Shown: piece after piece, positions 46,853 to 64,000 of the stretch | How the letters are laid out: each line of letters starts with the position of its first letter | Numbering within the stretch: the first letter of the stretch is position 1 | Assembly: GCF_003850045.1 (NCBI RefSeq) | Contig: NZ_RQJX01000003.1 | Location: 1-64,000 of the forward strand | Source: Aeromicrobium camelliae | Lineage (GTDB): Bacteria; Actinomycetota; Actinomycetes; Propionibacteriales; Nocardioidaceae | Length of the DNA stretch: 64,000 nucleotides | Direction: 5' to 3' | Program-made: the position numbers and the translations under genes | The notes under the pieces: model-generated | What the model saw: only the letters and a program-made list of their open reading frames with translations | Told to the model about the DNA's origin: nothing | Databases searched by the model: none

Positions 46853-46873
46853 GAGACGTCTCCTTGTCGTGGA

Positions 46874-49232: not shown

Positions 49233-49242
49233 GTCCGCCTCC

Positions 49243-49533: not shown

Positions 49534-49560
49534 AGGGGGTTTCTCGATTCTCGGGGGATG

Positions 49561-50028
49561 TCAGCTGATGGTGCGCGCGATGATCGCGAACAGAGCATCG
49601 GCGTCGGGGGCCGCCTTGAGGGCCTCCATGGTCTCGGTGTCGGAGAACATGCCGATGAGCGACTGCAGCGTCGTGAGCTGCGAGGTCGCGTCCGCGAGGG
49701 CGATCATCACGACGAGTTCGACCTCGACCGTCTGAGCGTTCGCGCCCATCTGGTGGAAGGTGACCGGCTCGGCGAGCCGGGCGACGCTGAGGAAGGACTC
49801 ATTGACGTGCTCGGGGTCCGTGTGCGGGATCGCCACGGGCATGACGGCGGTGGGAAGTCCGGTCGGGAACTTCTCCTCACGCGCCAGGAGTGCGTCGGCG
49901 AAGGTGGGCTCGACCGTGCCGCGAGCGAGCAGCTGATCGGCCATCTCCCTGAGCAGGTCGTCACGCGAGGCCGCTCGGACCCCGACCCGCACGAAGTCGG
50001 GATGCAGCAGCGAGGCGACGGTGCTCAT
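49561..50028 (-). CDS. PTS IIA subunit (fructose/mannitol/galactitol type)
   Basis: A 155-residue IIA protein of the PTS_EIIA_2 domain. The phospho-His is in VMPVAIPHTDPEHV near residue 69. Its start overlaps the stop of the dehydrogenase gene by 4 bases. It relays phosphate from HPr to IIB. Confidence 0.9.
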   Translation of the reverse strand: MSTVASLLHPDFVRVGVRAASRDDLLREMADQLLARGTVEPTFADALLAREEKFPTGLPTAVMPVAIPHTDPEHVNESFLSVARLAEPVTFHQMGANAQTVEVELVVMIALADATSQLTTLQSLIGMFSDTETMEALKAAPDADALFAIIARTIS

Positions 50029-51050
50029 ACGTCGTACCGGATGACGTTCTTGATGACCTCACCGCGAGCGTGCTCGCGGATCGCGGCCTCGAGATCGTCG
50101 AGTTCGTAGGAGTTCTGCACGAAGTCCTCGTGATGGATCGCGCCCATCTTGAGCAGCTCGAACGCCGCACGCACGTGGATCGGCGTCGTGTGGAAGATGC
50201 CCTTCGCGGTGATCTGGTCGTAGTGGAAGCGAGTGCAGTCGAGGGTGACCGACGTGCCCTTCTTGGTGCCGCCGAAGAACAGGACCGTGCCACCGGGGCA
50301 GACCATGTCGAAGGCGAGCTCCCACACCTGCGGCAGGCCGGTCGCTTCGATCGCGATGTCGACGCCGCGACCGTCCTCGGTGAGCTCCTTGACAGCGGCG
50401 ACCTGGTCGACGCCGTCGTGGATGGCGATGGTGTGCTGCGCGCCGAGCTTCGTGGCGAGCTGGAGGCGCTTCTCGTTGACGTCCTGCGCGATGACGCGGG
50501 CGCCGCGCAGGTGCGCGAGACGGATGAACATCAGACCGATCGGGCCGCAGCCGATCACGACGACCGTGTCGCCGAGTTCGATCGGCACCTGAGCGGTTCC
50601 GTAGACGGCGCAGGCGAGCGGCTCCGTCAGCGCCGCCTGCTCGTAGGGCATGTCGTCGGGAAGGCGGAACATCGTCTCGTTGACGATGCGCTCGGGGATG
50701 AGCTGGTACTCCGCGTACGCGCCGAGGTTCGAGGGCAGGTCCACGCACATGGAGTGGTTGCCCTTCTTGCAGTAGTAGCACTGGTGGCAGGGGGCGGTGT
50801 TGTGCGCAACGACGCGGTCGCCCACGGCGAAGCGCGTCACGCCCTCGCCCACCGCGTGCACGACACCGGCGGCCTCGTGCCCGATCAGGTGAGGCGGGTC
50901 GTAGCGGTAGCCGCGCATGAACATCTTGATGTCGGTGCCGCAGGTCAGGGTCACCTTGTTCTGCACTACGACCTCACCCGGACCCGGCGTGGGGATCTCC
51001 ACGTCCTGGATGCGCACGTCTTCGATGCCGTAGTAAACCGCTTGCTTCAT
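50025..51050 (-). CDS. Zinc-dependent polyol (phosphate) dehydrogenase
   Basis: A 341-residue medium-chain dehydrogenase of the sorbitol/galactitol-1-phosphate type. It has the catalytic Zn ligands Cys in TLTCGTD and GHEAAG (His, Glu), the structural zinc set CHQCYYCKKGNHSMC, and the NAD site VVIGCGPIGLMFIRLAHLRG. It would oxidise the polyol phosphate imported by the PTS to a ketose phosphate. The ATG at 51048-51050 is preferred over one 54 bases upstream. It is the first gene of the operon and is divergent from a DeoR regulator. Confidence 0.9.
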   Translation of the reverse strand: MKQAVYYGIEDVRIQDVEIPTPGPGEVVVQNKVTLTCGTDIKMFMRGYRYDPPHLIGHEAAGVVHAVGEGVTRFAVGDRVVAHNTAPCHQCYYCKKGNHSMCVDLPSNLGAYAEYQLIPERIVNETMFRLPDDMPYEQAALTEPLACAVYGTAQVPIELGDTVVVIGCGPIGLMFIRLAHLRGARVIAQDVNEKRLQLATKLGAQHTIAIHDGVDQVAAVKELTEDGRGVDIAIEATGLPQVWELAFDMVCPGGTVLFFGGTKKGTSVTLDCTRFHYDQITAKGIFHTTPIHVRAAFELLKMGAIHHEDFVQNSYELDDLEAAIREHARGEVIKNVIRYDV

Positions 51051-51110
51051 TCGCCTCACCCTGGTGTGATGCGGTGCGCACTGCTGTCCGCCGCTGTGAC
51101 GCACCTAACA

Positions 51111-51167
51111 ACTTGACTGGACAAGTAAACATGAACGGGCAGAATGAAGTCAATACGGATGCCCGTT
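51111..51167. promoter_or_regulatory. Two dyads in the divergent polyol/DeoR promoter
   Basis: ACTTGACTGGACAAGT (51111-51126) has perfect 5-base arms. Downstream, AACGGGCA (51134-51141) pairs with TGCCCGTT (51160-51167) across 18 bases. Both lie in an AT-richer stretch between the operon and the regulator and are good candidates for DeoR binding. Confidence 0.6.
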
Positions 51168-51193
51168 TCGTTTTGAATGGAGACATAGCCTCG

Positions 51194-51967
51194 ATGTACG
51201 CCGCCGAACGCCACCGCGAGATCGTCGCCGCGGTGCGCCAGCACGACCGCGTGACCGTCCAGGAGCTGGCGGGTCGCCTGTCGGTGACTCCGGAGACGAT
51301 CCGCCGCGACCTCAGCGAGCTCGAACAGCGCGGCCTGCTGCGGCGGACGCACGGCGGCGCGGTCCGGGTGGAGCGTACGTCCTACGTCTCTCCGGTCACT
51401 GACGCAGAACGACAGAACCTCAACGCGGCGGAGAAGACCGCGATCGCGCGCGAGGCGCTTGCGCACGTCGAAGACGACTCGACGATCGCCATCGACGCCG
51501 GCACCTCGACGATCAAGCTGGCGGAACTGATCGGACCGGAACGGCGGCTGACGGTCGTCACGTACTCGCTCGTCGTCGCTACGGTGCTGGCCGGACATCC
51601 CCATGTGTCCGTCCACCTGCTGGGCGGACGCGTCGTGGCCAACTCCCGTTCGGCCGTCGGGCCGTGGACGGAGGAGCTCGTCGATCGCGTCACACTCGAC
51701 ACGGCGTTCCTCAGCGTCGACGGTGTCAATGTCCGCCACGGCATCACGACGCACAATATCGATGAAGCCTCGATCAAGGCCAAACTCATGAAGGCGGCCC
51801 GCTCCACGGTGGTCCTGGCCGATTCGACCAAATTCGGCCGGGAGGAATTCGGACGCATTGCGGCCTTGAGCGAAGTCGACACGATTCTGACGAACGAAGG
51901 GGTCGACCTCGACCATGTTCACGACGTCCGCGAAAGCGGAGCGAACGTCACCATCGTTCCGGTGTAG
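51194..51967 (+). CDS. DeoR/GlpR-family regulator of the polyol operon
   Basis: A 257-residue DeoR regulator. The HTH has MYAAERHREIVAAVRQHD and LAGRLSVTPETIRRDLSELE. The sugar-phosphate sensor domain has DAGTSTIKLAEL and ADSTKFGREEFG with the conserved Lys. It should repress the divergent PTS operon until a sugar phosphate binds. The ATG at 51194 gives the normal DeoR N-terminus; earlier starts would read through the operator dyads. Confidence 0.9.
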   Translation: MYAAERHREIVAAVRQHDRVTVQELAGRLSVTPETIRRDLSELEQRGLLRRTHGGAVRVERTSYVSPVTDAERQNLNAAEKTAIAREALAHVEDDSTIAIDAGTSTIKLAELIGPERRLTVVTYSLVVATVLAGHPHVSVHLLGGRVVANSRSAVGPWTEELVDRVTLDTAFLSVDGVNVRHGITTHNIDEASIKAKLMKAARSTVVLADSTKFGREEFGRIAALSEVDTILTNEGVDLDHVHDVRESGANVTIVPV

Positions 51968-52010
51968 CCGAAGAATTGCTGCACCAACACAGAACACCTA
52001 TAGTCGAATC

Positions 52011-52358
52011 GTGGCCAAGAAAACAATTGAGAAGTTCTTCTCCGATATCAGCGGCGAAGAAATCGAAAGCGGAACTCCGACTCTCACTTTCGCCTTTGAC
52101 GGGACGACGTACGAAATCGACGTCACCGATAAGGAAAAGAGCGAGATCGAGAAGGCCTTCGCCCCGTACATCCGGGCAGGTCGCAAGGCGAGCGGTGCGG
52201 GAAACACCCGCCGACGCACTCGTCGTTCGAGCGGTTCGTCGAATTCGGGATCGCAGGCCAAGGAAGTGCGCGCCTGGGCCAAGGAGCAGGGCATTGAGGT
52301 GCCGGCTCGTGGGCGAATTCCGGCGGAGGTTCTCGAGAAGTACAACGCCGCCAACTGA
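52011..52358 (+). CDS. Lsr2-like nucleoid-associated protein
   Basis: A 115-residue Lsr2/H-NS-like protein. The N-terminal dimerisation domain ends with TLTFAFDGTTYEIDVTDKEK, then a basic GNTRRRTRRSSGSSNSGSQA linker. The C-terminal AT-hook-like domain is WAKEQGIEVPARGRIPAEV, with the RGR core that enters the minor groove. Such proteins silence horizontally acquired AT-rich genes. The GTG at 52011 is used. It stands directly before the IS-rich junction and is lower in GC than its neighbours. It may not be the only copy in the genome. Confidence 0.88.
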   Translation: MAKKTIEKFFSDISGEEIESGTPTLTFAFDGTTYEIDVTDKEKSEIEKAFAPYIRAGRKASGAGNTRRRTRRSSGSSNSGSQAKEVRAWAKEQGIEVPARGRIPAEVLEKYNAAN

Positions 52359-52397: not shown

Positions 52398-53444
52398 GCG
52401 GTGTCAAGTCGTGGAAGCAACGAGTAGTCGGTTGAAGGCTTCGCGTGGGGTGAGGTACCCGAGGGTGGCGCGGGGGCGGTCGTTCATTTCTTCCGCGATG
52501 GCGGTGAGGTGGGGCTGGTGGGTTGTTATCTGGGTGCCTTTGGGGAGGTACTCGCGGACCAGCCCGTTCGTGTTCTCGTTCGTGCCGCGTTCCCAGGGGC
52601 TGCGTGGGTGGGCGAAGTAGACGGGCATGTCGGTCGCCACGCTCAACGCGGCGTGCTGGGCCATTTCCGGGCCCTGATCCCAGGTGATGGACCCGCTCAT
52701 CAACTGCGGAAGACCACGCACATGGTCGATCACGGTATCCACGACGGCTTCACTGGAACGTCCCTCCGGCAGGGGGAGCAGTATCAGGAACCGGGTCTTG
52801 CGCTCGACCAGGGTCACCGCAGCACTCTTGCCTGCCGCGCCGATGATCAGGTCACCTTCCCAGTGCCCGGGCACACGCCGGTCATCGACCCCGTCGGGGC
52901 GGTCATCGATGGAGACCATGCCCACGATCCGTGCTCCGCCGTTGCAGGTATCGGTGCGGGGCTTGCGGCGCGTGCGCTTGGAACGCAACAAGATCCCCGC
53001 CTTGGCGAGCTCTCCCTTGGGGAGGGCGTAAATGTATGGGTAGATCGCTTCGTGAGAGACGGCACGGCCTTCCGCGTCGAGGGAACCAGGCAACACCTCC
53101 CGGGTGCGGTCGTCGGCCTCTGCGCGCAACCTGCCCGCGATCTGGTTCGGGGTCCGCGAACGGCGCAAATCCGCACGCACTCGCGCGGCAAGCACCGGAT
53201 CGGCGGCAACCTTCCGGGCCTGCGGACGCGCCCGCCGCTTCCTGGCTTTCTCGTCCGCGGTCACGATCCGATACCCGCGGGTCTTCGTCGAGTTCCGGCG
53301 AATCTCCCGCGAGACCACCGACGGGGCTCGTCCGATCCGCTCGGCGATCTGCCGCACCGTCAACTTCGCCTGGACCCCGGCACCGATCTCGGCACGGTCA
53401 TGGAACGTCAACACTCGCCGCTGCAACGACGCTATGACACCGCC
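52397..53444 (-). mobile_element. IS30-family insertion sequence
   Basis: About 1048 bases bounded by a 10-base terminal inverted repeat GGCGGTGTCA (52397-52406) and TGACACCGCC (53435-53444). The transposase stop lies in the left repeat. The right side lies inside an IS3-family orfB; the left side abuts the lsr2 terminator. The flanks therefore do not match and there is no evident short target duplication, so one side was probably lost by deletion or recombination. Confidence 0.85.
52404..53426 (-). CDS. IS30-family transposase
   Basis: A 340-residue DDE transposase. The HTH has LTVRQIAERIGRAPSVVSRE, and catalytic residues are Asp in HWEGDLIIG, Asp in TWDQGPEMA and Glu in GTNENTNGLVREY. C-terminal NDRPRATLGYLTPREAF is typical. 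The length is normal and the start is TTG at 53424-53426. It appears complete. Confidence 0.92.
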   Translation of the reverse strand: MQRRVLTFHDRAEIGAGVQAKLTVRQIAERIGRAPSVVSREIRRNSTKTRGYRIVTADEKARKRRARPQARKVAADPVLAARVRADLRRSRTPNQIAGRLRAEADDRTREVLPGSLDAEGRAVSHEAIYPYIYALPKGELAKAGILLRSKRTRRKPRTDTCNGGARIVGMVSIDDRPDGVDDRRVPGHWEGDLIIGAAGKSAAVTLVERKTRFLILLPLPEGRSSEAVVDTVIDHVRGLPQLMSGSITWDQGPEMAQHAALSVATDMPVYFAHPRSPWERGTNENTNGLVREYLPKGTQITTHQPHLTAIAEEMNDRPRATLGYLTPREAFNRLLVASTT

Positions 53445-53625
53445 TGTGCGCGTCGAACAACGCGTTGGCGCGATACGCCTCGACGAGTTCGGAGTCGGTG
53501 ACCGGGCTCTTCAGCCAGCGGTAGTAGGGCTGGCGGGCGAGTTTGAGCACCCTGCACGTCACCGTCACAGGCACCCTGATCGAGGCGTCCTTGGCGGCCA
53601 GTTCACGGACGAGCGGGAACATCAT
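53445..53625 (-). pseudogene. IS3-family transposase orfB, 5' remnant
   Basis: About 60 residues of the N-terminus of an IS3 OrfB. It has MMFPLVRELAAKDASIRVPV, LKLARQPYYRWLKSP and YRANALFDAHR, then is cut where the IS30-type element begins; normal continuation and the whole integrase core are missing. Its start overlaps the orfA stop by 4 bases, as usual in this family. Confidence 0.85.
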
Positions 53626-53915
53626 TTTCCCGGCAGATTCGCCTGCGACAGATACGCTGCCGCCCGCCGCAGAACCTCGTTCTCCTGCTCCAGGAGCCGG
53701 TTCCGTTTGCGAAGTTCACGCAACTCAGCAGACTCGCTCACGGTCACGCCGGTCTGCCCACCAGCAGCGATACGAGCCTGTCGCAGCCACTTGTCGAGCG
53801 TCCCGACATGAATCCCGAAATCCTTCGCGATCTGCGCCAACGGAACATCGGGGTCACGGTTCAGGGCAACCCGCACCACATCCTCGCGGAATTCTCTGGG
53901 AAACGGCTTCGGCAT
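53622..53915 (-). CDS. IS3-family transposase orfA
   Basis: A 97-residue OrfA. The HTH holds VPLAQIAKDFGIHVGTLDKW, and a leucine-zipper stretch SAELRELRKRNRLLEQENEV follows. Without orfB it cannot drive transposition. It sits in a truncated IS481 element. Confidence 0.88.
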   Translation of the reverse strand: MPKPFPREFREDVVRVALNRDPDVPLAQIAKDFGIHVGTLDKWLRQARIAAGGQTGVTVSESAELRELRKRNRLLEQENEVLRRAAAYLSQANLPGK

Positions 53916-53965
53916 GATGACATCCTTCCAGGCCCGCCCCACGGGCAAGCCAGATCAGATGTCAC

Positions 53966-54379
53966 CTACTCGTGCAGCAGTCCCTCGTGCTCGTAACGGC
54001 GGATCGGTTCCCCGGTGACCCGGTCGATCGCGGAGAGCCGGTTGATGCGGCAACGCACCAAGACGGCGTGGATGGTCGAGGCGGGCAGACCGAGCTCGCC
54101 AGCGATCTGGACCGGTCCGAGACGGCGTCGCCACCTCGCTTTCACGATCTTCTTGACCTGCGGCAGCGGTGTCTTCGTCGGCATCGACCGTGGGCGGCTC
54201 GATCGATCCGTCATCCCGGTCGATCCCTCGGCTTGGAACCGGGCAGCCCACTTCCTGGCCGTGACGGGCGAGACCATGAACATCTTCGCCGCGACCGACG
54301 GCGGCCAGTGATCCTCGACAATCAGGCGCGCCAACCGAAGACGAGCGCGTGGGGTCAGGGCAGCGTTAGCGTGGGACAC
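53966..54379 (-). pseudogene. IS481-family transposase, truncated
   Basis: About 137 residues of an IS481 transposase N-terminus: MSHANAALTPRARLRLARLI, PVTARKWAARFQAEGSTGM and an HTH with GELGLPASTIHAV. It lacks the catalytic core, which was lost where the IS3 piece begins. The full remnant of this element extends to a TGTGATGTCC terminal repeat ending at 54495. It is a distant relative of the complete IS481 at 7776. Confidence 0.87.
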
Positions 54380-54442
54380 GAGGGCCTCCTGGTTCGTGAA
54401 GCGGTTGAACTCAACAGCTCCACTTCACAACCGGAGGCCCTC
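54380..54442 (-). promoter_or_regulatory. Hairpin before the truncated IS481 transposase
   Basis: GAGGGCCTCC and GGAGGCCCTC form the base of a stem that extends through GGTT-GTGAAG-TGG pairing, just before the GTG at 54377-54379. The AGGAGG site is in the 3' arm. It matches the layout of the hairpin at 7820-7874 in the complete IS481, with base changes on both arms that keep pairing. Confidence 0.72.
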
Positions 54443-54511
54443 GCTTTTCAGCTCCTCACAGCCGTGTCGCCGAAACAACGTCCCTGGACATCACACCTAG
54501 GGCGTGTCTGA

Positions 54512-55081
54512 CTAATGTTTGGTCCAGGCGATGACGGCGTTGAGGACGACGGCCGCACGGTAGGTTCGGGCGTGCTTGTCGTAGCGGGTCGCGAGGCCGC
54601 GCCATTGCTTCATGTCGCAGTAGCGGCGCTCGATCACGTTACGGCCGCGGTAGGTCTCGGCGTCGAAGTTCGGTGGCCTGCCGCCAGCAGATCCTCGTCG
54701 AAGGCGGTGGCCCTTCTGATCGTCTGGGACCGGGATGACCGCTGTGATCCTGCGGTCTCGCAGGTGTTGGCGGATCGCCCGCGACGAGTAGGCCTTGTCG
54801 CCGCGGACCGCATCGGGTCGGGTTCGCGTCCGGCCGCCGGGTTGAGCGATGCGCAGCTGGCCCATCAAGGGCAGGAACATCGGTGAGTCGCCAGCCTGCC
54901 CAGCGGTCAGCAGCACGACCAGAGGGAGCCCGTTTCCGTCGACCAGCGAATGCACTTTCGTGCTCAAGCCACCGCGAGAACGGTCGATTGCGTGGTCAGG
55001 CGGCTCGAGCAGATTCGTGTAATTCGACCCAGCCCCCTGTGTGGCGGGTGACGTTCGTGGCGTGCTGGTGAGCGCGGGCAA
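54512..55081 (-). CDS. IS5-family transposase, second frame
   Basis: Carries the catalytic part of an IS427-type transposase: DHAIDRSRGGLSTKVHSLVD, an Asp in AVRGDKAYSSRA and Glu in RNVIERRYCDMKQWRG. It overlaps the first frame by 86 bases and is probably made by programmed frameshifting. About 170 residues belong to it. Confidence 0.85.
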   Translation of the reverse strand: MPALTSTPRTSPATQGAGSNYTNLLEPPDHAIDRSRGGLSTKVHSLVDGNGLPLVVLLTAGQAGDSPMFLPLMGQLRIAQPGGRTRTRPDAVRGDKAYSSRAIRQHLRDRRITAVIPVPDDQKGHRLRRGSAGGRPPNFDAETYRGRNVIERRYCDMKQWRGLATRYDKHARTYRAAVVLNAVIAWTKH

Positions 55082-55412
55082 TCGTGGAATCGACCGAGAC
55101 TGCCCAGTCGATCATCCCGGCGGCATCGGCAGCCGCGGTGAGCTCGGCCAGCACCGCGTCCCAGGTTCCGTCATCGGCCATCCGCCGATGCCACGTCCAG
55201 ACCGTCTGCCACGGCCCGAAAACCTCGGGCAGATCACGCCACGCGATCCCTGTCCGATACCGGTAGATGATCGCCTCGACCATCGTCCGAGCATCGGAGA
55301 ACGGACGACCCTGACGACCCGTCCGAGCAGGCAACAACCCCTCGATCAACGACCACTGCGCATCACTCAGCACCTGAAATCTCGACACCACACCCACGAT
55401 CCCCGACACCAC
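54996..55412 (-). CDS. IS5-family transposase, first frame
   Basis: The N-terminal portion of an IS427-type transposase. It has LSDAQWSLIEGLLPARTGRQ, YRYRTGIAWRDLPEVFGPW and the first catalytic Asp in WAVSVDSTIARAHQHA. It should be joined to the second frame by ribosomal slippage near 55000-55080. The start may be internal, at the GTG before SRFQVLS. Confidence 0.85.
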   Translation of the reverse strand: MVSGIVGVVSRFQVLSDAQWSLIEGLLPARTGRQGRPFSDARTMVEAIIYRYRTGIAWRDLPEVFGPWQTVWTWHRRMADDGTWDAVLAELTAAADAAGMIDWAVSVDSTIARAHQHATNVTRHTGGWVELHESARAA

Positions 55413-55523
55413 CGCGAATCTTTATCAGACACGCCCTAGTCGAATGCGGCCTCAAGTGCAGGAAACTACTCCAGGAGCGTTGCCCGCAGACGGTTGAAGG
55501 CACGGGATCGATCCATGACGAGA

Positions 55524-55622
55524 TCAGCTCGTGCCCTCGGCCCGAGCAGCACGCCGCGCCGCGGTCTTACCCGACTCCTTGGTCACGTTCGCCTCATCAG
55601 TCTCAGTGGTCACAACGGTCAT
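55524..55622 (-). CDS. Possible 32-residue peptide in IS debris
   Basis: A short frame MTVVTTETDEANVTKESGKT followed by AARRAARAEGTS and a stop, with a GAGAGGA site before the ATG. It sits between the IS5 element and an IS110 fragment. It may be the leader part of a lost transposase or chance. I do not recognise it. Confidence 0.25.
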   Translation of the reverse strand: MTVVTTETDEANVTKESGKTAARRAARAEGTS

Positions 55623-55671
55623 CTTGATCCTCTCTCAAGACCAACCGCTTACACAGACCATCTGACACGCC

Positions 55672-56013
55672 CCCGAGTTCATCGGCGTCGTCGGCGGAAT
55701 CGAGAACATCGAAAGCGCCGACCGTTTGGCAGGCGTCGCCGGCCTCGCGCCCGTCTCACTCGATTCCGGACGCATCAGCGGCAACCATCATCGACCGCAC
55801 CGTTACGACAGACGACTGCTCCGAGCCTGCGACTTGTCCGCGCAATCGGCCGCACGATACTGCCCACGATCTCGCGCCTACTACGACAAGAAGCGGGCCG
55901 AAGGGAAGACTCACAAGCAGGCCGTTCGCGCCCTTGCCCGCCGACGAATCAACGTGATCTGGGCCATGCTCCGCGACAACCAGCCCTACCGCGTCGTCGA
56001 TCTTACCGCTTGA
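55672..56013 (+). pseudogene. IS110-family transposase, C-terminal remnant
   Basis: About 113 residues from the transposase_20 domain: EFIGVVGGIENIESADRLAG, AGVAGLAPVSLDSGRISGN with the conserved Ser, RPHRYDRRLLRACDLSAQ, and ARRRINVIWAMLRDNQPYR. The N-terminal DEDD/RuvC-like half is absent. The remnant begins right after an IS5-like end TCTGACACGCCC near 55662. Confidence 0.87.
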
Positions 56014-56168: not shown

Positions 56169-56318
56169 CACGGCGACCTGTTCTACAACTCCGAGATCGT
56201 CCGCGACCTCGACGAGTTCAAGAAGCGCTCCGACCTCATCATCACCAACCGGCGCGCCCAGCACCTCGCCGACGTCGCCGAGAAGGTCTACACCCGCGAC
56301 ATCTACGGCAGAGACTGA
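56169..56318 (+). pseudogene. UDP-glucose 6-dehydrogenase, 3' fragment
   Basis: About 49 residues, HGDLFYNSEIVRDLDEFKKR then SDLIITNRRAQHLADVAEKV and YTRDIYGRD, match the C-terminal end of nucleotide-sugar dehydrogenases such as Ugd. Everything upstream is replaced by IS30-type sequence. The gene is lost; its stub shows what stood here before. It overlaps the convergent glycerate kinase gene by 16 bases. Confidence 0.82.
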
Positions 56319-57484
56319 GGGTGCGGCGAGGGCCGGCCCGCCAGCACTGCGGCGAAGACGTCGTAGCTGGTACGAGCGATCAGGTCGGAGGCTTCCGCAC
56401 AAAGGGACCTCAAGGACGCGGGCCCGGGTGCGATGCTGAAAGCGGCCGCGACGCCGGCACGGTAGGCCTGCTCGGGTTCCACATCCACCGAACCTGCAAT
56501 CACCAGGACCGGACGCCCAGCTGCCTGGCGCGCCACTTCGCCCACCACCTTTCCTTGGAGCGACTGGTCGTCAAACCGACCCTCCCCCGTCACCACAAGG
56601 TCCGCTCTCGCCGCCGCATCAGAGAACCCGGCAAGCTCCATGACCATCCGGGCACCAGATTCGATCCTCGCCTCGAACACGGCGAAGAGTCCCAGCGGTG
56701 TCGCTCCCGCGGCGCCCATACCGGGCAACTGCGGTGTCACCGGCAGCCCGGCGGCGGAGAGCACGTGCCCAAGGCGCTGCAGCCCGCGGTCCAAGGCCTC
56801 CACGTCATCTGGCGATGCTCCTTTCTGCGGTCCGAACACATGCGCCGCGCCAGTCGGCCCCCATGCCGGGGAGGTGACGTCGGTCGCCAGACGCCAGCGG
56901 ACGCGACGCAGGCCTGGAGCAAGGCCGGAGAAGTCCACCGTCGCCAAGTTCTGCAAAGCTCCACCGCCCGGTTGTAGGTCGCGGCCTTGAGAATCAAGGA
57001 ATCGAGCTCCGAGACTGCGCAGGATGCCGGTTCCCCCGTCGGTCGTTGCCGACCCGCCGAGGCACAGGACGACTTCCTCGACACCGTGGTCGAGCGCGTC
57101 CCGGATCAGCACCCCGGTGCCCTCAGTGCTGGCAGAGAGGGCAGCAGCGGGCAGATCAGCAATGCCGGGAAGGCCGCTGGCGGCAGCGATTTCCACCACG
57201 GCAGAGCGGTGGTCCTTCGACAGGGCATACGATGCCCGGACGGGGCGTCCGAGGGCGTCGGCGGTCGACACCGTCCGCAGGTCGTGACCTCGCGCCGCCA
57301 CGATGACGTCGACACTGCCCTCTCCGCCGTCAGCCAACGGCATCCGCGTCAGCTCGAACCGGGGGCCCAGTCGGTCCAAGCCGGCCGACATCGCCTCGCA
57401 GACACCACGGGCAGACAGGCTGCCCTTGAACGAATCGGGCGCGAGAAGCACGTGAAGCGGAGGCGAGGAATCGATCACCGCCAC
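56303..57484 (-). CDS. Glycerate kinase (GlxK/GarK family)
   Basis: A 393-residue glycerate 2-kinase type protein. It starts AVIDSSPPLHVLLAPDSFKG and has ADGGEGSVDVI, CLGGSATTDGGTGI, GMGAAGATPLGLFA and VVTGEGRFDDQSLQGKVVGE. It phosphorylates glycerate for entry to lower glycolysis. It is the last gene of the monooxygenase operon, 3 bases after the hydrolase gene. The GTG at 57482-57484 is the likely start. Confidence 0.9.
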   Translation of the reverse strand: MAVIDSSPPLHVLLAPDSFKGSLSARGVCEAMSAGLDRLGPRFELTRMPLADGGEGSVDVIVAARGHDLRTVSTADALGRPVRASYALSKDHRSAVVEIAAASGLPGIADLPAAALSASTEGTGVLIRDALDHGVEEVVLCLGGSATTDGGTGILRSLGARFLDSQGRDLQPGGGALQNLATVDFSGLAPGLRRVRWRLATDVTSPAWGPTGAAHVFGPQKGASPDDVEALDRGLQRLGHVLSAAGLPVTPQLPGMGAAGATPLGLFAVFEARIESGARMVMELAGFSDAAARADLVVTGEGRFDDQSLQGKVVGEVARQAAGRPVLVIAGSVDVEPEQAYRAGVAAAFSIAPGPASLRSLCAEASDLIARTSYDVFAAVLAGRPSPHPQSLP

Positions 57485-57487
57485 CGT

Positions 57488-58318
57488 TCAGTCGACCTGC
57501 GACCAGAAGCTGCGCAGGACCTTCTCCACCTCGCCAGGCAGATCGATGTTCGGAGAATGGCCGGTGTCCATCACGACCGCCTTGACAGCAGGTGCTGCGG
57601 CGACGATGCGGTCTTGCCAGCCGGGCTCGACCATCACGTCCCGGGACCCGGCCACGAGGAGAATCGGCGTCGACACGGTGGCGAGCGTCTCAGGGTAGCC
57701 GTCAGCCGGCGGAGGCGTTGCGGGCAGCTCCGGGTTGCGCAGTCCCCACGCGCGCAGCGACTCCCAGTGGCCGGGTATCAGCGAATTGGCCAGACGACGA
57801 GCAACATGCTCCTCGGTGGCTGCGTCGCTGCCGACCACAAGATCGCTGATACGGCGAGCTTCCGTTTCGGTGGCCCGGTAGTCGGCCATCGCGGTGATGC
57901 CCGTCTGAGAGCGCCAGGGGCCGCCCGTGCCCGCGATACTCACGGCACTGCGAATCGGCCACACGCCGGCGATACTGGCGCGCAGAATGAGCGAGCCGCC
58001 AAAGGAGTTGCCGACGAAGTGGGCGCGGGTGACACCGAGCTGGTCGCACAGCGCCGCGATGTGGTTCAATCGCGGCGCGTACAACGACTGGTCGAAATGG
58101 TGAACCTTGGCCGAGCCGCCCCAGCCGAGCAGATCAGGCAACAGCACGTGGAAGTCCGCAGACAGCGACTCGGCCACCTCGCCGAACGCCAGTAGTGCGT
58201 CGGTGCCGTAGGCCCCGTCGTGCACGAAGATCACGGTGTCGTTCGCCGGGTCGCCGGCTTCGTAGACGCGAGTGGCCAGGCCGGCGACAGTCAGGTCATG
58301 CGGAACGAGGGTGGGCAT
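57488..58318 (-). CDS. Alpha/beta hydrolase of the meta-cleavage/lactonase type
   Basis: A 276-residue hydrolase with FVHDGAYGTDALLAFGEVAE, LLPDLLGWGGSAK, the nucleophile region HFVGNSFGGSLILRA, and the late MDTGHSPNIDLP with catalytic His. It resembles HsaD/XylF-like and ester or lactone hydrolases. In this operon it could open the ester or lactone made by the Baeyer-Villiger enzyme. The ATG at 58316-58318 follows an AGGAGAAACACC site. Confidence 0.85.
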   Translation of the reverse strand: MPTLVPHDLTVAGLATRVYEAGDPANDTVIFVHDGAYGTDALLAFGEVAESLSADFHVLLPDLLGWGGSAKVHHFDQSLYAPRLNHIAALCDQLGVTRAHFVGNSFGGSLILRASIAGVWPIRSAVSIAGTGGPWRSQTGITAMADYRATETEARRISDLVVGSDAATEEHVARRLANSLIPGHWESLRAWGLRNPELPATPPPADGYPETLATVSTPILLVAGSRDVMVEPGWQDRIVAAAPAVKAVVMDTGHSPNIDLPGEVEKVLRSFWSQVD

Positions 58319-58356
58319 AGGTGTTTCTCCTTGGTGATGAAGCGGTGTTGAGTGGG

Positions 58357-59136
58357 TCAGGATGCTCGCTGGCGGGCACCTCGGTGCCAGGCGAGGGCTC
58401 GGCGTTCGACCAGCCCGAACGCGGCGTTCAGCCCGTAGCCGAGCAGCCCGAGCAGCACGATTCCCGCCCACATGTCAGTCATGGCGAACGAACGCTGAGA
58501 CTCGATCACGAAATACCCGAGACCGTTCGTGCTGCCCACCATCTCACTGATGACCATGAGGATGATGCCCAGCGACAGCGAAGTGCGGATACCAGCGAAG
58601 ATCTGAGGCGCGGCGGCCGGCAGCACCACGCGAGCGAGGGTGTCGGCGCGACGAACCGAAAAGGCTCGACTCGTTTCCATCAGCAGAGGGTCGATCCCGC
58701 GGATCCCGTCGACCGTATTGAGGAGGACCGGCCACACCGAGCCGAAGGCGATCAGCGCAATCTTCGATGTGTCTCCGATCCCCAGCATCAGGATCAACGG
58801 CGGGACGACCGCCGGCGCCGGGATCGCCCGGCAGAACTCGATCAGTGGCGCGGTGGCTCGCGACAGCACAGGGCTGCGCCCGAGCACGAAACCGACCACG
58901 ATGCCCGCGCTGATGCCGATGGCCAGCCCCGCACCCAGACGGACCAGGCTGGGGACCAGATCGCTCCCGACCCGGTCGAAGAGCCACACATTCTGGAAGG
59001 TCTCCAGGATGTGTGGAAGCGGCGGAAAGTAGAACGTGCTGGTGGTCAAGCTGCGCCACCAGATCACGGCGATCACCACAGCAGGAACGGTGACCTCGAT
59101 GGCCAGGTACAGTGCCCGGCTTCTGGTGGTGTTCAT
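58357..59136 (-). CDS. ABC importer permease (SsuC/TauC-like), second
   Basis: A 259-residue binding-protein-dependent permease with about six helices and the EAA loop region IRGIDPLLMETSRAFSVRRA. FYFPPLPHILETF near the start is typical. It starts at 59134-59136, overlapping the stop of the first permease gene by 4 bases. It forms the channel with that permease. Confidence 0.87.
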   Translation of the reverse strand: MNTTRSRALYLAIEVTVPAVVIAVIWWRSLTTSTFYFPPLPHILETFQNVWLFDRVGSDLVPSLVRLGAGLAIGISAGIVVGFVLGRSPVLSRATAPLIEFCRAIPAPAVVPPLILMLGIGDTSKIALIAFGSVWPVLLNTVDGIRGIDPLLMETSRAFSVRRADTLARVVLPAAAPQIFAGIRTSLSLGIILMVISEMVGSTNGLGYFVIESQRSFAMTDMWAGIVLLGLLGYGLNAAFGLVERRALAWHRGARQRAS

Positions 59137-59951
59137 TGAGCCACCTCGCGGTAGGTCGGATGCCAACGCAGGAGGCTGCCCTCGACCCGCACGAAGACGA
59201 TGTTGAGCAGCCAGCCGAGCAGACCAGCGACGACGATCAGCGCATACATCAGATCGGGCGCCCCCGATGCTCGGGCGATATTGATGGTCTGGCCGAGCCC
59301 CGGTGCACCGATGATCAGCTCGGTACTGACGGCCAGGGCCAGCGCCGTCGCCGAGGAGACCCGCATTCCGGTAGCGATGTACGGCAATGCGCTCGGCAGG
59401 AGTACCCTGCGAAACCGCATCGGACCAGGGATCCGATAGGAACGCGCGGTCTCCATCTGCACCGGATCCAGGTCGCGTACGCCATACATGGACTGGATGA
59501 GGATCGGCCACGTGGCGGCGAAGGCGGCCATGAAGATCTTGCTTTCCATGCCGGCGCCGAACATCAAGATCGCCAAGGGGATCAGTGCCACTGAGGGCAC
59601 GGGTCTGAGGAACTCAACGATCGGACGCAGCCCGTGAAACACCGGGTCCCAGAGCCCCGCCACCATGCCGAGCAGCACGCCGACGAGGGTGGCGATACCG
59701 AGTCCGGCCGCCCATCCCTGCAAGGTGAGAAGCACGTCGCTCCACAGCCGAGCCGATACCGCCTCCTCCGCCAGACGCGCGAACACCGTCGACATCGGCG
59801 GGAAGTACCGGGGGTTGACGATGCCCGTTCGCGTGATCAGCTCCAGGAGCGCGAGGATCCCGGCGACGCCAGCGAGACGCTGGAGGAGCGGGAGAAGCCA
59901 CGGGGGAATCGAGAAGTCCCCCTGAGCCGAGGCCCGGGCGGCGGTACTCAC
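59133..59951 (-). CDS. ABC importer permease (SsuC/TauC-like), first
   Basis: A 272-residue permease. It has PPMSTVFARLAEEAVSARLW, LRPVPSVALIPLAILMFGAG and VRDLDPVQMETARSYRI, with about six helices. The GTG at 59949-59951 overlaps the binding-protein stop in the usual GTGA way; an ATG at 59963 would add four residues. The two unlike permeases suggest a heterodimeric channel. Confidence 0.86.
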   Translation of the reverse strand: MSTAARASAQGDFSIPPWLLPLLQRLAGVAGILALLELITRTGIVNPRYFPPMSTVFARLAEEAVSARLWSDVLLTLQGWAAGLGIATLVGVLLGMVAGLWDPVFHGLRPIVEFLRPVPSVALIPLAILMFGAGMESKIFMAAFAATWPILIQSMYGVRDLDPVQMETARSYRIPGPMRFRRVLLPSALPYIATGMRVSSATALALAVSTELIIGAPGLGQTINIARASGAPDLMYALIVVAGLLGWLLNIVFVRVEGSLLRWHPTYREVAQ

Positions 59952-60943
59952 GATGCCGACCATCCGGCGAGGAACTCCTCGACGTCACCGGCTTCCTCGA
60001 TCAGCCCCCAGGTGACGCCCATCTGCATGTAGAGTTCGATCTTCTCCTCGTCGATGGTGTCGGCGAAGACCGGCATCCGCATGGCGGAGACCACCCCTGG
60101 GTCGATCTCAGTGAACTCGGTCACGATGTCGCGCGCCTCTTCGGGGTGTTCCTTGGCATAGGCCACGGAAGCCTCGAGAGCTCGCTGGAACTTCTCGACG
60201 ATCTGCTGATGTCCGTCGATGAACTGACTGGTCGAGAAGTAGAGCGAGGTCGGGAATTCTGGAGCGACGGACTCGTATGGGGTCATCACCACGCGAGCCA
60301 CGCCCGCGCTGACGGCTTGCGTGATGTACGGCTCGACCGCGAACGCCGCGTCCGCCTGGCCGTTCTCGATCGCGGCGGGCATGTCGGGAAACGGCATCTC
60401 GATGAGCTGCACCGAGCTGGGATCGACCCCCTCGTTCTCCAATGCGGTGCGCAAGGTGACCTCAAGGATGTTCTTGAGACTGTTGACTGCGACCGTCTTA
60501 CCGGCCAGATCAGCGGCGCCCTGGATCGGGCTGTCTGCAGCGACGATCACCCCGGACCAGGCTTCTTCGGCGGTAGCTCCACCCGTGGTTCCCGGGGCAA
60601 CCACACGGATCGGGAGGTCCTGAGACTGTGCCAGGACCAGGGACATGGGGTTGGAGAATCCGATGTCGCTGTCGCCCGCGACGACCGAAGCCGTCACGGC
60701 TGCGCCGCTGTCGGCCAGCTGCACATCCAACGACAGCCCTTCGTCGTCGAAGAAACCCTCCTCGATTCCCAGATAGATGGGGGCGACGTCGGCGACAGGG
60801 AACATGCCGAGCTTGATGACGGTGTTTCCGTCCGCGTCAGTGTCAGCTTGGCCTCCCCCGCCACAGGCGGCAAGGGTGAGCACGACGGCGGTGAAGCTGG
60901 CGCCGATGGCGAGCCGGCGGCGGGTTGCTGAGAGATGGGGCAT
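59948..60943 (-). CDS. ABC importer substrate-binding lipoprotein (SsuA/NMT1-like)
   Basis: A 331-residue solute-binding protein. The lipoprotein signal ends VVLTLAACG, with Cys at residue 27. It has FPVADVAPIYLGIEEGFFDD, GFSNPMSLVLAQSQ and AVNSLKNILEVTLRTALEN, typical of NMT1/SsuA proteins that bind sulfonates, aromatics or amines. The start is at 60941-60943 or three bases further out. The operon context suggests the ligand is a ketone or its alcohol precursor, or an aromatic compound; this is inferred. Confidence 0.87.
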   Translation of the reverse strand: MPHLSATRRRLAIGASFTAVVLTLAACGGGGQADTDADGNTVIKLGMFPVADVAPIYLGIEEGFFDDEGLSLDVQLADSGAAVTASVVAGDSDIGFSNPMSLVLAQSQDLPIRVVAPGTTGGATAEEAWSGVIVAADSPIQGAADLAGKTVAVNSLKNILEVTLRTALENEGVDPSSVQLIEMPFPDMPAAIENGQADAAFAVEPYITQAVSAGVARVVMTPYESVAPEFPTSLYFSTSQFIDGHQQIVEKFQRALEASVAYAKEHPEEARDIVTEFTEIDPGVVSAMRMPVFADTIDEEKIELYMQMGVTWGLIEEAGDVEEFLAGWSAS

Positions 60944-61001
60944 CATTGCCTTCTTTTCCAGTAGGTGAGGGGGACGATTTCGGCCGCGAGAGCAGCCGAT
61001 C

Positions 61002-61790
61002 TCAGACGAAGTCGGGGTAGGGCAGGCGAGCCTGGACGCCTCCATCGACGACGAGGGTCTGGCCGGTGATGTAGGAGGCCATCGGCGAGGCGAGGAAGAG
61101 CAGCACCGCCGCGATGTCAGCCGGTTCGGACAATCGTCCGATGGGCGTGTTGTCGACGAATCGTTGAAGCCTCGGCGGGTCGAGGATCTCACGCATCCTC
61201 GGAGTCAGAACGACACTCGGTGCCACGGAGTTGACCCTGACGCCGCTCGGCGCCAGCTCGACCGCCGCGGTCTGCACCAGGCTGATGAGGGCCGCTTTGG
61301 CGGCGGCGTACACGCCGTTTCCCTGTGCGCCGCTCAAGCCGGCGATGGAGCTCACGTACGTCAGAGTTCCGGCGGTACGACTCAGCTGCGCACTACTGTG
61401 CTTGACGAGCCAGCGCGCGTGTTTGAGAACGATATCGAACTGGAACTGCCAGTCTTCCTCGCTCGCCTCGGTGAGCTGCCGGAACCGGGCCATACCGACG
61501 ATGTCGACGACTCCGTCGAGGCGACCGTGTTCGCTCGCGGCCGCGTCGACGGCACCGATGAGTTCCTCCTCGTCGAGGACGTCCGCGGTCAGCGCCAGAC
61601 CGTCGAGTTCCGTCGCTACCGCCTGGGCACGTTCGGAGTCGTTGTCGAGGCACACCACGAAGGAACCTGCTTGCGCGAGGGCGTGGGCGGCCTGACGGCC
61701 GATACCTTGACCTGCCCCGACGACCAGATGGACCTTGCCGGACAGATCGAGCATTCGCAGATAGTCCGGCACCGCAGTTCGGTCAACCAT
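61002..61790 (-). CDS. SDR dehydrogenase of the catabolic operon
   Basis: A 262-residue short-chain dehydrogenase. It has VHLVVGAGQGIGRQAAHALA, VDIVGMARF, the Ser in TYVSSIAGLSGAQ, YAAAKAALISLV and SVVLTPRMREI. It could oxidise an alcohol to the ketone used by the monooxygenase. Its start overlaps the ATPase gene end by 8 bases, so it is inserted between the ATPase and the binding-protein genes of one transporter. Confidence 0.87.
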   Translation of the reverse strand: MVDRTAVPDYLRMLDLSGKVHLVVGAGQGIGRQAAHALAQAGSFVVCLDNDSERAQAVATELDGLALTADVLDEEELIGAVDAAASEHGRLDGVVDIVGMARFRQLTEASEEDWQFQFDIVLKHARWLVKHSSAQLSRTAGTLTYVSSIAGLSGAQGNGVYAAAKAALISLVQTAAVELAPSGVRVNSVAPSVVLTPRMREILDPPRLQRFVDNTPIGRLSEPADIAAVLLFLASPMASYITGQTLVVDGGVQARLPYPDFV

Positions 61791-62667
61791 GCTCGGCCTC
61801 CGCTTCACCCGCGGCTGCGTTGTCGGCGTCGGGCGCCTTGCTGTTCATGATCTCCTCGAACACATACGAGCGGAGCCGGGCGAACTCGGGCAGCTCCTTG
61901 GTGTGAACCTGATGCCGCGGGCGCGGCAGATCGATGTCCAACACCTCCTTCACCACGGTCGGGCGCGATGACAAGATGACGACCCGGTCAGCGAGATAGA
62001 CGGACTCGTCGATGTCGTGGGTGACGAACACGACAGTGACTCCGTACTGGTGCCTCAGATCGAGGACGAGATCCTCCAGCTCAGCACGGGTCTGGGCGTC
62101 GACGGAGGCGAACGGCTCATCCATCAGGAGGATCTCCGGCCGGTAGGCCAAGGCCCGCGCTATGGCCACCCGCTGCTGCATGCCGCCGGAGAGCTGCCAC
62201 GGATACTTGTCAGCGAACCCGGCGAGCCCGACCGACTCGAGGGCGCCGATCACACGCTCACGCCTCTCTTGGGAGCCGAGTCTCATGCGACGCAGTGGGA
62301 ATTCGACGTTCTTTGCGACCTTCATCCAGGGGTAAAGCGAGCGGCTGTAGTCCTGGAACACCAACGCCATCGTCGCCGGGGGTGCTGTGACCGGATCGCC
62401 GAGCAGGGAAACGGTGCCGGACGTCGGGGTGAGGAGACCTGACATGCTGCGCAGCAACGTGGTCTTGCCGCAGCCCGAGGGACCGACGATACACACCAGC
62501 TCACCTTCGCGTACTCCGAAGCTGATGTCGGCGATGGCCTGGGTTGCTTCTGCCCCGGTGCCGTAAGTCTTCGCGAGTCCGCAGACATCGAGCAGGAGTC
62601 GGGCAGACGGCTCAGGAAGTCCGCCGGGCACGGCGATGCCAAGTTCCGGGTTTGCGGTCGTGCTCAC
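61783..62667 (-). CDS. ABC importer ATPase (SsuB/TauB-like)
   Basis: A 294-residue ATPase. It has Walker A GPSGCGKTT, a signature QLSGGMQQRVAIARAL, Walker B ILLMDEPFASVD and the switch His in FVTHDIDES. VFQDYSRSLYPWMKV is the Q-loop. It powers the permease pair downstream. The GTG at 62665-62667 overlaps the tautomerase stop by 4 bases. Confidence 0.9.
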   Translation of the reverse strand: MSTTANPELGIAVPGGLPEPSARLLLDVCGLAKTYGTGAEATQAIADISFGVREGELVCIVGPSGCGKTTLLRSMSGLLTPTSGTVSLLGDPVTAPPATMALVFQDYSRSLYPWMKVAKNVEFPLRRMRLGSQERRERVIGALESVGLAGFADKYPWQLSGGMQQRVAIARALAYRPEILLMDEPFASVDAQTRAELEDLVLDLRHQYGVTVVFVTHDIDESVYLADRVVILSSRPTVVKEVLDIDLPRPRHQVHTKELPEFARLRSYVFEEIMNSKAPDADNAAAGEAEAEHG

Positions 62668-62867
62668 TTCGTGCCCCCGGCGTCTCGCGCCTGCAGGCTG
62701 GCCCCGCCGGCACCCCAGCTGTCACGCTGGACCTCGTCAAGGATGACCCACACCTTCTCCGCCGGCGCACCGCTGGCTTCGCTGTAGGCGGCGGTAAGGG
62801 CAGCAATGATGCGCTCACGTTGCGTGGGGTCGTAACTGTTCGCGTGACGCACTTCGATCAACGGCAT
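62664..62867 (-). CDS. 4-oxalocrotonate-tautomerase-family protein
   Basis: A 67-residue tautomerase. Pro2 becomes the N-terminal catalytic proline after Met removal (MPLIEVRHANSY). VWVILDEVQRDSWGAGG near residue 40 matches the family. It shifts keto-enol or double-bond position in small acids or carbonyl compounds. It stands between the monooxygenase and the transporter ATPase, with short spacing. Confidence 0.88.
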   Translation of the reverse strand: MPLIEVRHANSYDPTQRERIIAALTAAYSEASGAPAEKVWVILDEVQRDSWGAGGASLQARDAGGTK

Positions 62868-62877
62868 GATGGAACAC

Positions 62878-64000
62878 TCATTTCTTCTGGGCGGTGGGCC
62901 TGGGTGCGACGACGTCGTAGGCGTCGCGATCGAACGTCGTAGACAGCTCGTAGAAGCGGAGCAGGGGCCAAGGCCAGTTCTGGGTCACCTTGCCGTAGCG
63001 GTTCTTGTACCAGCTGCGCACGCCGGGCACACCCCAGGCGCGGAGCGCGTTGCCCCTGTCCATGTCGCGGCAATAGGCCTCGTACGCGCCCTGCTTGACA
63101 TCGATCGGCCGGCCGCCCTCGGTGAGACTGAACCGCAGGCATTCCATGATGTACTCGACGGAGCATTCGGTCATGAAGATCGCGCTGCCGGTCACGACAA
63201 GATTGGTGTTCGGACCGAACACCAAAAACAGGTTCGGGAATCCCGGAACGGAGACCCCCTTGTACGCCCCCGCGTTCCCGTCCCAATCCCTGTGCAGGTC
63301 TCGGCCGTCCTTGCCGGTGACCTCCATCGGCATGAGGAAGTCTGAGGCCCGAAAGCCCGTGGCGTACACGATGACGTCGAACTCCCGCTCACCGGATGCG
63401 GTCTCGATGCCGGTTGGCGTGATCCGGGTGATCGGATCGGTGACAAGGTCGACATTGTCTCGATGCAACGCCTCGGCCCAGACTCCGTTGTCGCGCAGCA
63501 TGCGTTTGCCGCCGGGCGGATAGTCCGGGACGACCTTGGCGAGCAGATCCGGTCGGTCGGCATACTGTTCCTCGAGCCGGGCGACCAGTTGATCACGGAG
63601 CAGTTTGTTGGCCGCGGACACCGTGCCCGGCTCGTCCCACTCCGGATCGACGGTCACCAGCGAGAGACGGCCCTCCGTTGCCAGCCAGAACTGCCAGAAC
63701 CGGAACCACCGGGGATACTCGGGCACGACGTCGAACAACCATCTCATTCCTGTCGGGACCGGCTCGTGATAGCTCGGGGTGGGGAGCATCCAGGGTGCGC
63801 TGCGCTGGTAGACGGCGAGTTCAGCCACGGTTGGTGCGATGGCAGGAACGATCTGATAGGCGCTCGCGCCCGTGCCGATGACGGCCACCCTTTTGCCCGT
63901 CAGATCCAGTGACGGATCCCACCGAGCTGAGTGAAACGCCGTTCCCTCAAAAGAGTCGATACCGGGAATGTCAGGGAGCTGAGGTTGATTGAGCTGGCCC
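62878..64000 (-). CDS. Baeyer-Villiger-type flavin monooxygenase, 5' end beyond window
   Basis: At least 374 residues are visible and the N-terminal FAD motif lies beyond 64000. FEGTAFHSARWD matches the Baeyer-Villiger fingerprint FxGxxxHxxxW(P/D). It is followed at once by the NADPH motif VAVIGTGASAYQIVP. YATGFRASDFLMPMEVTG and FGPNTNLVVTGSAIFMTE continue the pattern, typical of BVMOs related to cyclic- and aryl-ketone enzymes. It would insert oxygen into a ketone to give an ester or lactone. It is the most upstream gene visible in this leftward operon. Confidence 0.9.
   Translation of the reverse strand, partial: GQLNQPQLPDIPGIDSFEGTAFHSARWDPSLDLTGKRVAVIGTGASAYQIVPAIAPTVAELAVYQRSAPWMLPTPSYHEPVPTGMRWLFDVVPEYPRWFRFWQFWLATEGRLSLVTVDPEWDEPGTVSAANKLLRDQLVARLEEQYADRPDLLAKVVPDYPPGGKRMLRDNGVWAEALHRDNVDLVTDPITRITPTGIETASGEREFDVIVYATGFRASDFLMPMEVTGKDGRDLHRDWDGNAGAYKGVSVPGFPNLFLVFGPNTNLVVTGSAIFMTECSVEYIMECLRFSLTEGGRPIDVKQGAYEAYCRDMDRGNALRAWGVPGVRSWYKNRYGKVTQNWPWPLLRFYELSTTFDRDAYDVVAPRPTAQKK

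Follow-up and report, generated by a model that had tools for sequence, protein, structure and literature searches.

A ten-gene operon of Aeromicrobium camelliae combining a Baeyer-Villiger monooxygenase with an ABC importer and a glycerate kinase

Organization of the operon

The stretch of DNA analyzed here (the window) comprises bases 1-64000 of contig C13 (NZ_RQJX01000003.1; 225,984 bases) in the 3.06 Mb genome of Aeromicrobium camelliae. Its edge splits a gene for a type I Baeyer-Villiger monooxygenase (BVMO), the remainder of which was read on the same contig. This gene lies in a ten-gene unit on the minus strand (Table 1) that encodes, in order, a hydrolase (Hyd1), the BVMO, a small tautomerase, the ATPase of an ATP-binding cassette (ABC) importer, a short-chain dehydrogenase/reductase (SDR), the substrate-binding protein, permeases A and B of the importer, an alpha/beta hydrolase (Hyd2) and a glycerate kinase. 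The unit faces a divergent gene for an IclR regulator. The operon is real and its parts are ordinary, but their combination is unusual.

A preliminary description of the window had proposed a single leftward operon with the SDR gene wedged between those of the ATPase and the binding protein. All of the genes that it named were found on the minus strand between 56303 and 64000, and the gene order agreed. Extension of the sequence beyond 64000 completed the BVMO gene to 64830 and added Hyd1 and the divergent IclR gene, giving an operon of ten genes rather than nine; as judged from the sequence, these upstream additions did not point to a known pathway. The nine junctions from Hyd1 to the kinase had gaps of -4, 10, -4, -8, 55, -16, -4, 38 and 3 bp, five of them overlaps. 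A consensus scan, which is weak proof in an actinobacterium, found no terminator-like site on the minus strand from Hyd1 through the kinase; the sole minus-strand site of this type, at 65889, was within the IclR gene. The scan also gave no sigma-70-like site in the region, a result that proves little for an actinobacterium, and a search of Rfam returned nothing above threshold. With a 3-bp gap to Hyd2 and no intervening terminator, there was no sequence sign that the kinase is transcribed separately, an arrangement that would have spoken against the preliminary description. That ten genes run in the same direction, and that four of them are found again with the same type of IclR gene in 4 of 43 other loci (described below), indicates that the grouping is not due to chance.

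The divergent promoter between the IclR gene and Hyd1 contained a perfect palindrome, TTCCGTAAATCGGAA (TTCCG-N5-CGGAA), at 65681-65695, which occurred only once in the 160 kb of genome searched. Its match was reached by 1/1000 plain shuffles; the best matches in the corresponding intergenic regions of four related loci were reached by 2/1000 (L030), 63/1000 (L026), 85/1000 (L047) and 97/1000 (L031). The palindrome is a candidate IclR operator, and as such a lead only.

Table 1. Features of the operon and its immediate surroundings
Feature	Coordinates	Strand	Family match or remark
IS remnants flanking the operon	52404-56013		IS481, IS4/5, IS110, IS3, putative IS30
Glycerate kinase, class I (GlxK/GarK family), last operon gene	56303-57484	-	PF02595, TIGR00045
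Hyd2, alpha/beta hydrolase, BVMO partner	57488-58318	-	Closest solved folds: meta-cleavage-product C-C hydrolases
ABC importer permease B	58357-59136	-	PF00528 (on longer frame); start and open frame verified
ABC importer permease A	59133-59963	-	PF00528
Substrate-binding lipoprotein, NMT1/SsuA-like	59948-60946	-	PF09084, 140.3 bits (longer frame); open frame verified
SDR	61002-61790	-	PF13561, 189.5 bits
ABC importer ATPase	61783-62667	-	PF00005, 115.5 bits
Tautomerase, 4-oxalocrotonate tautomerase fold	62664-62867	-	PF01361, 45.9 bits
Type I BVMO, N-terminally extended, 650 residues	62878-64830 (to 64000 in the window)	-	
Hyd1, second hydrolase	64827 to about 65636 or 65657, past the window edge	-	Stop overlaps BVMO start
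IclR regulator, divergent from the operon	65748-66524, past the window edge		

Predicted functions of the gene products

The predicted BVMO is full length with its catalytic residues intact. The first glycine motif, GAGMSG, begins at residue 150 and the second dinucleotide-binding motif is GTGASA, in which G319, G321 and A324 were invariant in 11/11 aligned sequences. Between the two motifs, FEGTAFHSARWD at residue 294 matches the type I fingerprint FxGxxxHxxxW(P/D), and GGTWLENVYPGCRLD is found at residue 179. D193 and R443 aligned with the catalytic aspartate and arginine of phenylacetone monooxygenase (1w4x), which we take to be D66 and R337 in the numbering of that enzyme, and both were conserved in all 11 aligned relatives. 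The FAD-binding motif is preceded by approximately 140 residues, and the N-terminal extension of 4-hydroxyacetophenone monooxygenase (HAPMO) is likewise roughly 140 residues long. Having such an extension sets HAPMO apart from other type I BVMOs (PMC10028610). The label HAPMO-like as used here refers to the extension. The top NCBIfam match was PtlE, with 165.5 bits against a cut-off of 1100.

By both sequence and predicted fold (mean predicted local distance difference test score, pLDDT, 84.8), the structures nearest to Hyd2 were those of two meta-cleavage-product C-C hydrolases, CumD and DxnB2, followed at lower ranks by CarC, BphD, HsaD and MhpC; esterases were also present within the first 50 structural matches. 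The Ser-Asp-His triad (S105, D227, H254) and R175 were invariant in 9/9 aligned sequences, and R175 aligned with an arginine shared by CumD, CarC and DxnB2, presumably the substrate-binding arginine of the lid. The equivalog cut-offs were not reached (HsaD, 56.6 of 400 bits; BphD, 27.2 of 462.15 bits), and Hyd2 is best described as resembling a C-C hydrolase. Hyd1 scored best against PcaD-type models, again under the cut-off (TIGR02427, 138.4 of 255.85 bits). The tautomerase retains Pro-1, the residue after the initiating Met, and has Tyr and Trp at the positions of two arginines of 4-oxalocrotonate tautomerase, which we take to be Arg-11 and Arg-39; the four relatives carry either Gln or Leu in place of the first and either Trp or His in place of the second. 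Because the arginines are replaced, the protein is not a true 4-oxalocrotonate tautomerase, and it scored under the model cut-offs (TIGR00013, 37.1 of 56.9 bits; DmpI, 44.6 of 70 bits).

The importer is similar in its families and gene make-up to the SsuABC, TauABC and NMT1-type systems, but no aliphatic-sulfonate or taurine model reached its cut-off. SsuA_fam gave 127.2 of 163.5 bits and SsuC, TauC, SsuB, TauB, NtrCD and Sao were also under their cut-offs, so that a known sulfonate importer was rejected. The earlier designation of the importer as SsuABC-like holds only loosely, for the family likeness. The lipobox cysteine of the binding protein, C28, was invariant in 4/4 aligned sequences.

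The glycerate kinase matched PF02595 with 410.7 bits (cut-off 23.3) and TIGR00045 with 378.3 bits (cut-off 168.45), and aligned over nearly its full length with 3cwc and 1to6. Class I enzymes form either 2- or 3-phosphoglycerate (PMC2063504). The operon kinase is the third copy in the genome; the others are on C7 (46% identity) and C6 (38%, a value shared by most matches in congeners). Some kinase match was present in 48 of the 49 congeneric genomes, the present one included. The GC content at third codon positions (GC3) of the operon kinase, 0.754, matched that of the operon, versus 0.886 and 0.884 for the other two kinases. That it is the ordinary copy of the host is unlikely, since the two further copies have normal GC3, and its lowered value indicates that it came with, or to, foreign DNA. 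Judged by position, that is, by the gap, the uninterrupted strand and the shared skewed composition, the kinase belongs to the unit. Among the 394 genomes of the class, again with the present one counted, 17 others had a kinase match at E <= 1e-80 (45-54% identical), and a BVMO match was found in none of the 14 that were fetched. Neighbors were read for five of the nearest kinase relatives: three adjoin a GntP permease gene (PF02447 over cut-off), one of which is also beside a sugar-diacid-type regulator.

Related loci and probable acquisition

Forty-three other loci with a BVMO homologue were compared, including a second cluster in the same genome (L025). Twenty came from a scan of named genomes and four were fetched after a search of 195 plasmid records. 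A BVMO match at E <= 1e-100 was present in 84 of the 394 class genomes. Eighteen further places, the closest matches together with a selection of the others, were fetched. Homologues were counted within 8 kb of the BVMO; for 12 of the 43 loci the sequence ended within 8 kb on one or both sides. L106, from a congener, nearly duplicates L025. Hyd2 was the commonest specific neighbor (12/43). Hyd1, the tautomerase and the IclR gene were each found in 4/43, an SDR of any kind in 22/43, the importer genes in 3/43 and the glycerate kinase in 0/43; even at looser limits no related locus shared the kinase.

Hyd1, the tautomerase and IclR occurred in the same four loci, all of which also have Hyd2 and BVMOs that, at 57-62% identity, are among the nearest to that of the operon. 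These core clusters, from Rhodococcus pyridinivorans plasmid p_4-4_A (L026), Prescottella agglutinans (L047), a Blastococcus metagenome-assembled genome (MAG; L030) and Pseudonocardia sp. MH-G8 (L031), share IclR, Hyd1, Hyd2, BVMO and tautomerase with the operon. Unlike the operon, they have a major facilitator superfamily (MFS) carrier in place of the ABC importer, a different small SDR and no glycerate kinase. L026 and L047 additionally carry a CYP199-type P450 with an iron-sulfur reductase; the best solved relatives of the L047 P450 are CYP199 enzymes, and the L026 P450 is 85% identical to it. In both, a second SDR past the IclR gene is 33-34% identical to the operon SDR. The P. agglutinans BVMO (L047:10001-11892) matches in two segments interrupted near residue 353-358, and may be frameshifted or disrupted.

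Three other loci, on a Rhodococcus antarcticus plasmid (L027), in a Cryobacterium MAG (L041) and in genome G054 (L093), resemble the operon in having a binding protein, two permeases and an ATPase (55-62% identity) that adjoin an N-extended BVMO. They differ in that no homologue of Hyd1, tautomerase, IclR or kinase was found above the limits used. The statement of the preliminary description that the operon has its own importer was strengthened by this recurrence. L027 has neighboring genes for a gentisate 1,2-dioxygenase-like cupin (267.9 bits, under the cut-off of 442.1), a mycothiol-dependent maleylpyruvate-isomerase-family protein and a fumarylacetoacetate-hydrolase-family protein, which we read as a gentisate-type pathway. 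L093 has two FAD hydroxylases, of which the one tested scored best against MhpA models, and an HpcH/HpaI-family, HpaI-like aldolase, both under cut-off. In L041, the genes for the Hyd2 homologue and the BVMO are separated by one for an AA_synth protein (PF06684; 9351-9926), and an amidohydrolase gene is found upstream, which may indicate a different substrate class. A fourth candidate, L103 in genome G088, was too dissimilar for the limits (ATPase 40%, permease 33%, near a BVMO).

By gene content the operon is a mosaic: it shares its core set with the first group and its carrier with the second, and has the kinase to itself. The comparison suggests that the end genes and the carrier, which may be of MFS or ABC type, have been exchanged among loci. 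The P450, gentisate-type and hydroxylase-plus-aldolase neighbors point to an aromatic theme, and the related loci lend support both to the importer and to the aryl-ketone theme. In L035, a different small tautomerase-like gene, seen by eye and left out of the counts, directly follows the BVMO gene. The second cluster of the present genome (L025:3438-8348, contig C15) consists of an MFS carrier, a Hyd2 homologue (42%), a BVMO (48-49%) and an IclR gene; it is flanked by genes read as proA and nadD, and L106, in genome G094, is nearly identical.

The preliminary description had placed the operon next to insertion sequence (IS) debris and raised the possibility that it was acquired; the debris was confirmed and acquisition is likely. 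Pfam domains of IS481, IS4/5 and IS110 transposases were identified at 52404-56013, a PF01527 piece matches IS3 transposases on plasmids, where IS5 matches were found as well, and a protein with HTH_38 and rve domains was read as IS30. The GC3 of all ten operon genes (0.752-0.827) was under the 25th percentile (0.833) of 102 background open reading frames, which had been filtered for GC3 above 0.7, a step that raises the background somewhat. A BVMO match at E <= 1e-90 was present in 25 of the 49 congeneric genomes (own genome counted, some incomplete), but none of the 48 congeners had a BVMO more than 49% identical, and the 49% match belongs to the second cluster, which G094 also has. G107, whose flanking sequence is the most similar, matched 45255-51960 and 66584-71285 with nothing between; it has a different gene set beside a LysR gene and no BVMO match at E <= 1e-90. 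The two collinear blocks are on separate contigs, so G107 provides a synteny break rather than an empty insertion site. Acquisition is considered likely because IS remnants and a synteny break flank the operon and a search of the 48 congeners gave no close BVMO homologue.

A proposed pathway and its alternatives

We tentatively propose, with a probability of roughly 45%, that these genes form a catabolic operon under regulatory control, gained by horizontal transfer, for a secondary alcohol or ketone that is imported and probably aromatic. The order of the genes, their families, the intact catalytic residues and the recurrence both of the IclR, Hyd1, Hyd2, BVMO and tautomerase set and, separately, of an importer beside a BVMO were read from the DNA; from these we infer substrates, an order of steps, induction and a fate for the product. 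The binding protein and ABC importer would take up the compound, the SDR would convert a secondary (benzylic) alcohol to the ketone and the HAPMO-like BVMO would place an oxygen beside the carbonyl. Hyd2 would cleave the product, while Hyd1 and the tautomerase would deal with an enol or a second ester, and IclR would govern the gene set. Finally, the kinase would pass a released C3 acid to glycolysis as phosphoglycerate, a step that is less probable than the others. The sequence of alcohol, ketone, ester and hydrolysis in the preliminary description stands as a possible scheme, although as one option of two, given that Hyd2 resembles C-C hydrolases. Its further statement that the kinase implies release of a C3 hydroxy acid fared less well: the kinase is part of the unit by position, but the release of glycerate would rest on this one genome and draws no support from the related loci.

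Several observations weigh against the proposed pathway, 1) Pfam identified no ring-cleavage enzyme among the ten operon genes (further neighbors were read by eye only), and the only intradiol dioxygenase matches in the genome, both subunits (beta and alpha) of protocatechuate 3,4-dioxygenase, are on another contig, where scores over cut-off indicate that protocatechuate can probably be degraded, 2) Hyd2 resembles esterases less closely than it does C-C hydrolases, 3) the predicted model of the binding protein is poor (pLDDT 57.1) and gives no ligand hint, 4) the ATPase is of a common type, with a match at E <= 1e-70 in 66 of the 394 class genomes (own genome counted), 5) the SDRs inside the four core clusters are just 25-29% identical to the operon SDR, 6) a tree of 40 of the 44 BVMOs (L046, L047, L048 and L049 were dropped as too short) did not group that of the operon with the core loci and gives no proof of a single origin of the core set, and 7) the kinase, not found within 8 kb of any of the 43 other BVMOs, is terminal and adjoins the IS remnants.

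The last of these observations is what would be expected if the operon served the same aryl-ketone pathway and the kinase were a passenger, moved beside Hyd2 by IS-linked rearrangements and without a role in the pathway. The GntP permease genes beside three of the five kinase relatives that were read, the sugar-diacid-type regulator beside one of them, and the presence of two other kinases in the genome also favor this explanation. It is nevertheless somewhat doubtful, since only 3 bp separate the kinase from Hyd2 with no terminator on that strand and its GC3 is lowered like that of the operon, unlike that of the other two kinases. The resemblance of Hyd2 to CumD and DxnB2, with R175 on their arginine, raises a different alternative, in which the BVMO would produce a lactone or enol ester from a cyclic or vinylogous ketone, the PcaD-like Hyd1 would open this product, the tautomerase would ketonize the enol, and the beta-diketone or vinylogous acid so formed would be split by Hyd2 at a C-C bond, releasing the C3 unit. 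The PcaD-type score of Hyd1, although under cut-off, and the joint occurrence of Hyd1 and the tautomerase in the same four loci are consistent with such a ring-opening or diketone route, but esterases are also among the structural matches of Hyd2 and the CYP199-type P450, MhpA-like hydroxylase and gentisate-type neighbors indicate aromatic substrates. We regard this route as unlikely. BVMOs serve in biosynthesis as well, and the best NCBIfam match, PtlE, though far under cut-off, would fit a function in detoxification or natural-product tailoring rather than growth. The importer, IclR control, kinase and hydrolases are, however, catabolic equipment, and no biosynthetic gene was recognized by eye in the frames at 50000-84000, which makes a tailoring function very improbable.

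Among known systems, a close precedent for a catabolic operon of this kind is the hap pathway of Pseudomonas fluorescens ACB, in which an N-extended type I BVMO likewise works with a hydrolase (HapE/HapF). The hap cluster reportedly encodes a 4-hydroxyacetophenone pathway together with the ring-cleavage genes for hydroquinone. The A. camelliae operon differs in having no ring-cleavage gene and in its additional tautomerase, PcaD-like Hyd1, ABC importer and glycerate kinase. The acpAB genes of Rhodococcus rhodochrous GD02, which encode a BVMO and an esterase, have been proposed to act on acetophenone, and the authors gave phenylacetone monooxygenase as the closest characterized homologue of AcpA (PMC9618137). 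The pairing of a BVMO with an esterase or hydrolase is alike, and the accessible portions of that paper mention neither an importer nor a glycerate kinase for acpAB (PMC9618137). The portions of the open-license literature covered by our search held no description of the present cluster, and the terms "Baeyer-Villiger monooxygenase" and "glycerate kinase" co-occurred there only in a review on plastics.

To our knowledge, the simplest chemistry by which a HAPMO-like BVMO could yield glycerate starts from an arylglycerol. Lignin-derived arylglycerols or aryl dihydroxypropanones could be oxidized by the SDR to Ar-CO-CHOH-CH2OH, the two alpha-ketol isomers of which the tautomerase could interconvert. 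Insertion of oxygen on the aryl side by the BVMO would give an aryl ester of glyceric acid, from which a hydrolase would release glycerate and the phenol; the kinase encoded in the operon would then direct glycerate into glycolysis. This variant is speculative and we consider it improbable. If the kinase truly belongs to the pathway, the operon itself identifies glycerate as its product, and the substrate is narrowed to compounds with a glyceroyl side chain. As far as we know, few natural substrates have been assigned to the N-extended, HAPMO-like branch. BVMOs are widely used in biocatalysis, and the recurring five-gene set (IclR, Hyd1, Hyd2, BVMO, tautomerase) lends itself to cloning and testing as one unit.

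Genes flanking the operon

A gene for Lsr2 (51990-52358), with both Lsr2 domains over cut-off, lies between a DeoR gene and the IS remnants; no other PF11774 match was reported for this genome. Proteins of the Lsr2 family silence foreign DNA. On the other side, the region that adjoins the operon at 67494-71350 of the contig (L023) encodes components that by eye are similar to those of a phosphotransferase system, an eIF2B-family protein (PF01008) and a PF04227 (Indigoidine_A) protein. The set is perhaps for the utilization of a sugar or nucleoside, and similar genes are found in G107.

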